Under the pieces are notes generated by a model that was not told where the DNA came from, did no database searches, and saw only the letters and a list, made by a program, of their open reading frames with translations. Source: Clostridia bacterium (GTDB lineage Bacteria; Bacillota; Clostridia; Oscillospirales; CAG-272). From it: a stretch of 50,901 nt of DNA. The stretch spans positions 71,257 to 122,157 of the forward strand of contig JAGBCA010000001.1 of the NCBI GenBank assembly GCA_017938205.1, in the 5' to 3' direction. Both the position numbers and the translations under genes were made by a program. This document shows positions 35,829-39,657 of the stretch, one piece after another; position 1 is the stretch's first letter, and each line of letters starts with the position of its first letter.

Positions 35829-36006
35829 AGTGAAGTTTTCGCTACCGCGAAAGTGAAGTTGTGCAGATGCAAGGCATCAAGCACAGTGAAGTTGCTCCCT
35901 AATGATCGCAGTGAAGTTAAGCTTGCCCACTTTGCCAAAGGCAAAACTACACTATCCGAAGGATAACTTCACTTACGAAGTAAACTTCACTTGCCCGTAA
36001 GGGCAA
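35829..36006. repeat. hairpin-punctuated repeat array with spacer word AGTGAAGTT/AACTTCACT
   Basis: Four AGTGAAGTT words (starts 35829, 35852, 35885, 35910) then two AACTTCACT words (35965, 35983). Between them lie small hairpins, each with its own stem: TTTCGC-TACC-GCGAAA, GATGC-AAG-GCATC inside GTGC/GCAC, TTTGCC-AAA-GGCAAA, TATCC-GAA-GGATA, TTAC-GAA-GTAA, TTGCCC-GTAA-GGGCAA. The spacer inverts from left half to right half, so the element as a whole is roughly symmetric. Confidence 0.85.
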
Positions 36007-36012
36007 ACTTAG

Positions 36013-36067
36013 TTAGCGTGATACTCCGTTAAGAGTATCACGCTAAGCGCAGTGCCCCTGCTTTTTT
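36013..36067 (+). terminator. 14-bp perfect hairpin plus small terminator
   Basis: TTAGCGTGATACTC (36013-36026)/GAGTATCACGCTAA (36033-36046), then GCAG-TGCCC-CTGC followed by TTTTTT. It closes the repeat array on the right. Confidence 0.6.
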
Positions 36068-37959: not shown

Positions 37960-37988
37960 TTGACAAAACAGCATAAAAAGGATATAAT
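37960..37988 (+). promoter_or_regulatory. consensus promoter of the type III antitoxin RNA
   Basis: TTGACA (37960-37965), 17-base spacer, TATAAT (37983-37988): a perfect promoter, as expected for an RNA antitoxin that must exceed its toxin. Confidence 0.88.
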
Positions 37989-37993
37989 ATAAG

Positions 37994-38139
37994 TGCGGGT
38001 GTATCTCAGCCCTAAATGAGAAACTTACTAAGCGAACTTCTCTTGGTTCTTTCAAGAAAGTTACAAGTGAGTGTTTCGCTACTCAGAATGCGAAAGTTAT
38101 GTGATGAGGGCAAGGCACACTTGCCCTCATTTGCTTTTT
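37994..38139 (+). ncRNA. type III antitoxin RNA (ToxI-like), three pseudoknot units
   Basis: The transcript should start near 37994. Two full 36-base units (38021-38056, 38057-38092) open with AAA(C/G)TTAC; a 5'-shortened unit precedes them and AAAGTTA begins a third boundary at 38093. Each unit holds a 4-bp stem with an 8-base loop, and loop bases can pair with the unit's 3' tail. Unit 0: GGGT/GCCC, loop TCTCA with TGAGA. Unit 1: GAAC/GTTC, loop TCTTG with CAAGA. Unit 2: GAGT/ACTC, loop TTTCGC with GCGAAA. Stems and loops differ while pairing is kept. A terminator follows, then the toxin gene. The AAA at unit boundaries is a plausible ToxN processing site. Confidence 0.88.
38104..38139 (+). 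terminator. attenuating terminator between antitoxin RNA and toxin gene
   Basis: Perfect 11-bp stem ATGAGGGCAAG/CTTGCCCTCAT, 5-base loop, then TTGCTTTTT. It lies directly before AGGAGG of the toxin gene, the standard type III arrangement that limits toxin read-through. Confidence 0.92.
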
Positions 38140-38150
38140 AGGAGGACTCA

Positions 38151-38639
38151 ATGGACAACCTTAAGCTTTACGAAATTAACGGGAGCTATATTACATACCT
38201 CTCGGCGTATGCTCCGCATCTGTTTCAGAACAAGAAATCCGGGCAGAAGAACGAGAGAAAATATATCGGTATCGTTTTACATATCAACGGCTTCGATTAC
38301 TTCGCGCCGCTTTCCTCGTTCAAGGACAAGCATAGGATGATGAAGGAAGGACTCGATTTTATTAAGATCAAGGACTATGCCGTTATTAATCTGAACAATA
38401 TGTTCCCCGTACCGCTGAGTGAAGCAAAGTACGTTGATATAAGAAATGAGCGAGATCCTCACTACCGTGCGCTGCTTCTCGCCGAGTATCGTTATATTAA
38501 GTCCATTCAGGAGAAGATTTGGAAGAACGCGCAGAACGTTTATAAGATTAAAATCAAGGAGGGCGATGCTTCATCTCTCGCCAAGCGCTGCAACGATTTT
38601 CTTCTGCTTGAAAAGGCTTGCGCCGATTATATAAAATAA
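38151..38639 (+). CDS. toxN: type III toxin-antitoxin endoribonuclease, ToxN/AbiQ family
   Basis: ToxN-family ribonucleases cut mRNA and their own antitoxin transcript, and are held inactive in a closed complex with the antitoxin pseudoknots; several members give phage-abortive infection. The 162-residue product has the family signatures KLYEINGSYITYLS at the start, KYIGIVLHINGFDYFAPLSSFKDKH (38-61, including the Ser/Lys catalytic-loop region) and FIKIKDYAVINLNNMFPVP (70-88). Length fits. ATG at 38151 follows AGGAGG by 5 bases. Upstream lie the repeat RNA and its terminator. It is part of a small islet after guaA. Confidence 0.93.
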   Translation: MDNLKLYEINGSYITYLSAYAPHLFQNKKSGQKNERKYIGIVLHINGFDYFAPLSSFKDKHRMMKEGLDFIKIKDYAVINLNNMFPVPLSEAKYVDIRNERDPHYRALLLAEYRYIKSIQEKIWKNAQNVYKIKIKEGDASSLAKRCNDFLLLEKACADYIK

Positions 38640-38658: not shown

Positions 38659-39093
38659 ATGAATGATATAAAATGTTATATCAAAGACAAATTAACTGAA
38701 TTTAACGATAAATATAATGTAAAACACAAACTTGACAGTTGTTGGGGCAATGACAAAGATATGAAAAGACAATGGAAGCGAGATTGTGAAAATGTTCGGT
38801 TGCAGTGGCAAGATGTAAATTCGGTTTCAGATGTAAAAATGTATATCGAGCGATATGCTTCAATCGTCGAAAGATATCAGAACATTAGAGGCGTATACTT
38901 AGACTCTTACGATATGGATTTAGCATTGTATAGAGTCATTTCTGCTTTGCAAAAAATGGCACAATGTTATGACTATGAAGCACTTGGGTTTAATGGATGT
39001 AACAAAGAAGAAATAGATGCTTTGTTTGATAGATTATATCAAGTTTTTAATGATATGGAAGATGTTAACATTCGCCGTGCAATGCAAGATTGA
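38659..39093 (+). CDS. uncharacterised protein co-oriented with toxN
   Basis: The 144-residue product is predicted all-helical, rich in Lys, Asp, Asn and Tyr, with Trp at several positions (CWGNDKDMKRQWKRDCENVRLQWQDV). No family recognised. Its start lies 19 bases after the toxN stop, with GAGGGG as ribosome site, so it probably shares the toxin transcript. Base composition is clearly more AT-rich than toxN or the core genes, a sign of separate acquisition. It could be an accessory of the toxin locus or simple cargo. Confidence 0.72.
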   Translation: MNDIKCYIKDKLTEFNDKYNVKHKLDSCWGNDKDMKRQWKRDCENVRLQWQDVNSVSDVKMYIERYASIVERYQNIRGVYLDSYDMDLALYRVISALQKMAQCYDYEALGFNGCNKEEIDALFDRLYQVFNDMEDVNIRRAMQD

Positions 39094-39264: not shown

Positions 39265-39657
39265 ATGGCTCTTATTAAGTGTCCAGAATGTGGAAAACAA
39301 GTTTCAAATCAAGCGAGTGCTTGTCCCAGCTGTGGTTATCCAATCAAAGGAGTTAATACTAACACCGCAAATATTCCAACAATGCTAAAATTTACTTCCA
39401 AAGATAGAAGTGCTAAATATGCTATTGTATGCGACGCTAAAACAGGTAAAGAATTGGCAAAAATTGACCGAGAAACAGCTCGCTCTATCAATATTACTAA
39501 ACCAACAGAAATTACATTTTGTGTGCGATTCTCTATGTTAATGTCATCAAATACTATTCATCATATCATTTATCCAGGAAAATGTTATGAACTCATGTAT
39601 TACAAAAAAACACTTACTTGGGATGTCGGCATTTCAGAGGTATCAGCAATTGTGTAA
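39265..39657 (+). CDS. small zinc-ribbon protein
   Basis: The 130-residue product has an N-terminal zinc ribbon (C6-x2-C9 and C20-x2-C23: CPECGKQVSNQASACPSCG), followed by a linker and a beta-rich domain of about 85 residues with no recognised family. No membrane segment. AT-rich composition matches the neighbouring 38659 gene. It has its own promoter and an AGGAAGG ribosome site. Zinc-ribbon plus unknown domain proteins are common cargo of mobile elements; function unknown. Confidence 0.75.
   Translation: MALIKCPECGKQVSNQASACPSCGYPIKGVNTNTANIPTMLKFTSKDRSAKYAIVCDAKTGKELAKIDRETARSINITKPTEITFCVRFSMLMSSNTIHHIIYPGKCYELMYYKKTLTWDVGISEVSAIV

Follow-up and report, generated by a model that had tools for sequence, protein, structure and literature searches.

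Published and control ToxIN arrays consist of tandem copies of one antitoxin unit (92% match for an E. coli plasmid locus with the repeat finder TRF). The window analyzed here, the whole 50,901-nucleotide stretch of contig JAGBCA010000001.1 from a Clostridia bacterium, contains a related locus whose units, by contrast, differ by slot. What kind of system carries such an array, and why are its units unlike? We judge it probable that this is a ToxIN-type locus with a mixed three-pseudoknot antitoxin, in which a tolerant toxin reads features shared by all units and the interior of each slot is frozen. An earlier, sequence-only reading had proposed a type III toxin-antitoxin locus whose units differ in sequence and follow one pseudoknot plan, a proposal that our results support.

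Architecture of the locus

At positions 37960-38639 (+) of the window a promoter is followed by three H-type pseudoknots, which a terminator separates from a ToxN gene; this is the promoter-antitoxin-terminator-toxin order expected of ToxIN. The individual features are as follows.

37960..37988, + strand: sigma-70 type promoter, TTGACA-17-TATAAT, consensus match 12/12
37997..38021, + strand: pseudoknot unit 1 (type A); strict scan, and pair counts with both-sided changes in helices 1 and 2
38022..38033, + strand: linker 1-2, where processing is predicted; TTA (38025-38027) lies in its 3' overhang, and AAGC is the 5' overhang that follows
38034..38057, + strand: pseudoknot unit 2 (type B); strict scan, and pair counts with both-sided changes in all 4 pairs of helix 3 and two pairs of helix 4
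38058..38068, + strand: linker 2-3; TTA (38061-38063), 5' overhang AAGT
38069..38093, + strand: pseudoknot unit 3 (type C); strict scan, pair counts, stem 1 covaries
38094..38101, + strand: 3' overhang of unit 3 (AAGTTATG)
38103..38131, + strand: intrinsic terminator separating the array from the toxin gene; stem of 12 pairs, 5-nt loop, T-rich tail
38151..38639, + strand: ToxN/AbiQ-family toxin, 162 aa; PF13958, PDB and PADLOC matches
38659-39093: 144-aa protein after the toxin; no Pfam, PADLOC or NCBIfam match
39265-39657: 130-aa zinc-ribbon protein after the toxin

The promoter had been called a consensus one from the sequence, which the full match bears out; a similar promoter lies 5' of the array in close relatives. 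The terminator was likewise correctly placed, although with 12 pairs rather than the 11 bp first given. The assignment of the gene to the ToxN/AbiQ family also holds: the protein matches PF13958 with E=9.2e-47 (159.6 bits; cut-off 25) and the PADLOC AbiQ model with E=3.5e-38, and structural matches to ToxN (PDB 4ato, E=7.8e-20) and AbiQ (4glk, E=2.9e-9) are present. NCBIfam, searched with E up to 0.01, yielded no match for the toxin or the neighbouring protein. According to passages of PMC4627078, type III families are assigned by the toxin, and on PF13958 and PDB 4ato the toxin belongs to the ToxN family. The ToxN active site comprises K/R33, T/S52, S53 and K55, with residue roles given in passages of PMC8860590; the window toxin has R36, S55, S56 and K58 at these positions, as mapped by reading the PDB alignments. 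Among 27 aligned toxins R36, S56 and K58 are invariant and S55 is kept in at least 90%. For the toxin, three of six pairs gave a computable dN/dS, with values of 0.037-0.069; in one of the three, dS was saturated.

The three antitoxin units follow a common plan of a 4-bp stem 1, an 8-nt loop (3 + 4 + 1) and a 4-bp stem 2, the latter formed by the four loop nucleotides and an arm lying 5, 4 and 5 nt beyond stem 1 in units 1, 2 and 3, respectively. Cores measure 24-25 nt and linkers 11-12 nt, giving a unit spacing of 35-37 nt. Stem 1 of unit 1 pairs 37997-38000 with 38009-38012, loop 1 is GTA and stem 2 pairs 38004-38007 with 38018-38021, with a possible fifth pair 38008-38017. The corresponding elements of unit 2 are 38034-38037/38046-38049, TTC and 38041-38044/38054-38057 (possible fifth pair 38045-38053), and those of unit 3 are 38069-38072/38081-38084, GTT and 38076-38079/38090-38093. 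A scan with this strict plan over 5,000 dinucleotide shuffles of the array found three units in none, two in 1 and one in 187, compared with three in the native sequence. The plan of a 4-bp stem, an 8-base loop and a loop-to-tail pairing had been recognized in the sequence-only reading, whose count of 13 ungapped matches between two 36-base units is exact. Its division into two full units and one 5'-shortened unit, however, did not stand: three complete pseudoknots describe the array best, and the earlier register begins inside a linker. A point against the knotted reading is that a nested-only fold, which retains hairpin 1 and the terminator, prefers other pairings in the regions of units 2 and 3.

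No two units share an exact match of more than 8 nt. In gapped alignment, two of the three pairs of units score better than shuffles (as high in 0 of 500 for units 1 and 3, and in 5 for units 2 and 3), whereas units 1 and 2 hardly do so (56 of 500). TRF reports no repeat in the window array even at score 30, so that the array lacks the tandem likeness by which such loci are searched for.

The 5' neighbour of the locus is guaA, and the two small genes listed above lie 3' of it; the genome of the window holds one toxin and one exact GTATCTCAGCCC. Among the named loci, guaA stands upstream of the toxin in L039, L041, L043 and L045, and the two small genes recur in L039 and L041 only, 96-99% identical to those of the window. 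Because the small genes and the toxin (95-96%) of L039 and L041 are 95-99% identical to those of the window and guaA is only 85-87% identical, these comparisons suggest that the toxin and the two small genes form a cassette that was transferred and may move as a unit behind guaA. A search of the window for an attachment site revealed no same-strand repeat of the guaA end of at least 12 bases. At L011 (1-1108) a toxin remnant that contains a stop lies behind the guaA end, corresponding to the final portion of a ToxN gene (86% identity over 28 residues); a toxin once stood at the same site there. As a separate observation, the minus strand carries an Rfam Gut-1 RNA at 35941-36015 (50.6 bits; cut-off 50).

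Conservation of three unlike slots

We compared the arrays of homologous toxins. A profile scan of genome contigs with an alignment of six toxins gave 124 relatives, 80 of which were kept; four overlapping genome searches yielded matches in 13 of 395 (family), 21 of 394 (order), 37 of 391 (class) and 16 of 398 (phylum). The toxin set held 137 distinct matches, of which 122 were full length with at least 200 nt upstream. In an IQ-TREE tree of these 122, whose bootstrap was not fully settled and whose midpoint root serves for drawing only, the window toxin falls into a group of 79 (support 98/97) that spans Clostridia, Erysipelotrichaceae, Treponema and Atopobiaceae; the Atopobiaceae include the record Olsenella sp. 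An270 on a 500-kb contig.

Tandem arrays of 25-60 nt were reported by TRF at 5 of the 79 loci within this group versus 37 of the 43 outside it, and at all five control plasmid systems (86-98% match), which include the AbiQ plasmid pSRQ900. A few outside loci (L020, L028 and L035) have partly mixed arrays, and TRF is silent at 6 of the 43, where at most two clear units are seen by eye; heterogeneity as such is therefore a matter of degree, and what distinguishes the group is only its fixed slots. A Fusobacterium plasmid ToxIN (L299:298-455) has three like units and an unlike fourth one before the terminator. Rfam gave no ToxI match for the window array with E up to 10 and none at gathering score in 13 further loci; as seven of these lie outside the group of 79, its silence is not special to the group.

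Across the 79 loci the unaided scan found three units at 60, four at 1, five at 1, two at 9, one at 4 and none at 4. Scan and reading by eye together give 68 three-unit loci; the other 11, read by eye, have two units, one, or degenerate or no units in place of the three-slot array (two at L104, L105, L107, L110, L112, L114 and L115; one at L109). In L096 (2810-2958) the slot-3 pseudoknot keeps its stems, but its loop 3 is extended to 29 nt from the 5-6 nt found elsewhere; upstream of the L107 toxin the second unit has seemingly turned into a long hairpin (AACTTTGGA...TCCAAAGTT); and at L101 a stretch with roughly inverted ends, which may be a mobile element, occupies the expected array site before a shortened toxin frame.

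The group series, given as loop 1 and stem-2 arm, is GTA with TCTC in slot 1 (A), TTC with TCTT in slot 2 (B) and GTT with TCGC in slot 3 (C). Among 61 strictly parsed arrays, whose units had to pair to be counted, 51 show the A-B-C series, 50 of them exactly and one with a single-base difference in loop 1. Type A fills both slots 1 and 2 in seven (ATA with TCTC in six, GTA with TCTC in one), and in one of these, L097, the two copies are identical at the anchored positions. A shifted set is found in two Treponema arrays and another set in one, L007, which is the earliest-branching row of the group under the midpoint root and has a TCTC unit in slot 2 and a TCGC arm in slot 1 as well. In slot 3 all 61 arrays carry the arm TCGC. 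We claim the A-B-C series for Bacillota; Treponema and Atopobiaceae carry modified sets.

Units usually resemble their own slot at other loci more than their neighbours. In 42 loci with less than 90% toxin identity (mean 64%), same-slot identity between loci over 24 anchored positions was 0.863, 0.805 and 0.831 for slots 1, 2 and 3, as compared with between-slot identities of 0.662, 0.597 and 0.543 within one locus. Of the 126 units, 112 were nearer to their own slot elsewhere than to their best neighbour; the 14 exceptions come from eight loci, six of which have type A twice.

The folds themselves rest on comparison. In an alignment of 63 distinct arrays (189 units) that was not fitted to the structure, 99.7% of the 1,512 paired cells pair, 14 of the 24 pairs show, in one sequence or more, a change of both partners, and 112 cells carry both-sided changes versus 29 in shuffles; none of 500 shuffles reaches the native values for pairing, pairs changed or changed cells. 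When the structure is slid along the alignment, pairing falls to 38-59%. Further pair types were not exceptionally numerous, with counts as high in 42 of the 500 shuffles. These covariation counts are of sequences and not of events, and relatedness of the loci inflates them. Most change lies in stem 1, where slot 2 is changed at all four pairs; stem 2 is near-frozen. In slots 1 and 2 it has two changed pairs per slot, and slot 3 lacks any both-sided change, so that for unit 3 its near-invariance leaves covariation mute. The covariation first noted within the single array is thus borne out across 63.

A decaying array with chance hairpins could be suspected from the silence of TRF and from the alignment of units 1 and 2, which barely beats its shuffles; conservation and covariation across 63 arrays, together with the low toxin dN/dS in the three computable pairs, make this explanation exceedingly improbable. 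These data support the mixed array as a real and conserved trait.

Viral contigs were searched as well. The slot-1 RNA motif alone retrieved 14 stretches, seven with a multi-unit array and, in all seven, a ToxN frame; the other seven were single matches with neither array nor ToxN frame within the DNA examined. Phage-borne arrays without a toxin, that is, mimics, were thus absent from these 14 stretches. Unit order was A-B-C in L119, L164, L166, L167 and L173 and A-A-C in L165 and L176, which resemble each other. Searching viral contigs with the toxin itself returned no relative from a single sequence and one (L119) from the alignment A2. The unit-2 motif was too unspecific in viral contigs; among the matches listed for it, L164 alone, also in the slot-1 set, was inspected.

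A proposed reading of three different RNAs by one toxin

We infer the following course of events at the locus. The promoter would drive transcripts of ~145 nt, most of them stopping at the terminator, and read-through would supply the toxin message. On the comparative evidence, each unit folds as a ToxI pseudoknot with a 4-bp stem 1, a 3-nt loop, a 4-bp stem 2 and a core of ~25 nt. The ToxN RNase would cut the linkers, and the released units would hold the toxin, probably in a ring built of three toxins and three RNAs as in solved complexes. Passages of PMC8860590 give E. coli ToxI a 5' overhang of 4, a core of 25 and a 3' overhang of 7, with which the core and linker lengths of the window array agree. 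By this geometry linkers would be cut after about the seventh linker base, and cuts at the AAA beside stem 2 are therefore unlikely. The conserved linker element of the group is TTA; AAA is also held by the window linkers.

A single toxin would have to accept all three units, and the positions common to all slots are consequently the natural candidates for what it reads. U6 in loop 1 and the C9-G24 pair are invariant in 189 of 189 units. In the set of 42 loci, U8 and A25 are kept in at least 98% in every slot. Within the 3' overhang, T at +4 and A at +6 are kept in at least 93%, and 88-98% have G at the second base ahead of stem 1; position +5 of the overhang is T in 100% of slots 1 and 2 and mostly A in slot 3. 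In the E. coli complex, passages of PMC8860590 describe overhangs read base by base, a loop-1 A6 that contacts the toxin and knot ends that touch it. As the shared positions match contact positions of solved relatives, U6, U8-A25, C9-G24, the overhang T--A and the G before stem 1 plausibly make up the reading list by which one toxin could accept three RNAs. The proposal that each pseudoknot binds the toxin differently is unsupported as stated, given this match and the seven arrays with type A twice.

The knot interior, that is, loop 1 and the upper part of stem 2, differs between slots and is frozen within each, with stem 1 free to change in pairs. Most simply, the interiors would be frozen because loop 1 must fit stem 2, so that a change needs several simultaneous steps; the fit is not strict, since the loop ATA occurs both with TCTC and with TCGC.

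Why the units are mixed is a further matter, and several explanations compete with a tolerant toxin reading shared features. One is that unlikeness bars recombination or slippage between units and so fixes their number. The 8-nt maximum of exact matching between units, set against the TRF arrays seen at 37 of the 43 loci outside the group and in all five plasmid systems, fits this, as does the dependence of AbiQ defence on repeat number described in passages of PMC5772629. It predicts free drift within slots, however, and the frozen slot cores argue against a purely anti-recombination role; moreover, like-unit arrays persist outside the group, and slots 1 and 2 are alike in seven of 61. We hold this explanation to be possible at best.

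A second explanation is a division of labour, in which three non-interchangeable, ordered pseudoknots form an A-B-C ring, or provide distinct weak points opened singly by phage infection. In its ring form, each three-fold ring takes one unit of each type and one transcript supplies one ring. The kept slot order and cores (51 of 61), TCGC as the last arm throughout and three units at 68 of 79 loci are in line with such an arrangement, and passages of PMC4627078 and PMC8860590 report three RNAs in solved ToxIN complexes. Yet all units meet the same toxin, type A occupies two slots in seven of 61 arrays (identically at the anchored positions in L097), L007 has the TCGC arm also in slot 1, and some loci read by eye make do with two units or one. 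Type A twice and loci of two or one unit speak against a strict division of labour, and we regard both the general idea and the ordered ring as unlikely.

Third, the mixture might stop stem-2 arms from pairing across units during RNA synthesis. Over five positions the consensus arms pair best with their own partner (5/5 for A and B, 4/5 for C), and every cross pairing contains a mismatch or wobbles; B with A nevertheless pairs 5/5 if wobbles count, and outside the group arrays are as a rule homogeneous. In 11 of 42 loci slots 2 and 3 share the same stem-1 arms, versus 6.3 by permutation; avoidance of equal stem-1 arms is rejected on this count, which also speaks against a general avoidance of cross pairing. 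We consider this third explanation quite unlikely.

Arrays with type A twice and loci short of three units suggest that one unit can replace another; the frozen slot cores, on the other side, indicate that units seldom change. On balance we favour separately constrained, frozen knot interiors that one tolerant toxin reads.

Relation to known systems and meaning

The locus shares with ToxIN of P. atrosepticum, B. thuringiensis and E. coli the PF13958 toxin, the promoter-array-terminator-toxin order and tandem H-type pseudoknot units (three here, supported by covariation) with a 4-bp stem 1, a core of ~25 nt and a 35-37-nt spacing. It differs in its unlike units and at position 6 (numbered so that stem 1 begins at position 1), which is U in the window and the toxin-contacting A6 in E. 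coli ToxIN (passages of PMC8860590). With AntiQ-AbiQ of the Lactococcus plasmid pSRQ900 it has in common a homologous toxin and an array before the terminator; the pSRQ900 array, with 2.9 copies at 98% match, is unlike the mixed units of the window. CptIN of Eubacterium rectale resembles it in its type III logic, its pseudoknotted antitoxin units and its occurrence in Clostridia, but passages of PMC4627078 describe a 45-nt CptI unit and a heterotetramer, in contrast to the 35-37-nt units here. Membership in CptIN is rejected, given the PF13958 match, this unit length and the absence of any CptN-named chain among the 13 PDB matches obtained at E up to 1.

Passages of PMC8040213 propose HMP2_3156 (106 bp), HMP2_5421 and HMP2_14852, RNAs upstream of ToxN in Clostridiales and Leptotrichia, as possible ToxI. 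HMP2_3156 could correspond to the array described here; those passages say nothing of differing units. In passages of PMC8860590, PMC5086642 and PMC12804078, tandem repeats serve as a search or filter criterion. Since repeat likeness is a search criterion and not the basis of family assignment, we file the locus as a new variant of ToxIN.

A literature search over titles, abstract starts and passages, in which ToxIN was partly read as 'toxin' and was to that extent unspecific, returned no description of a slot-specific mixed antitoxin array. The main catalogue of such systems is that of Blower (2012), and mixed arrays could be listed there.

Taken together, three unlike repeats are invisible to a repeat finder, and a catalogue built on tandem repeats can thus overlook loci of this type. 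As one toxin must accept all three units, the shared positions list what the toxin may read, and the remainder what it may ignore. Slot swaps would bear on the interchangeability of the units, on ring assembly and on phage defence, a function that we assume for this locus from its toxin family.
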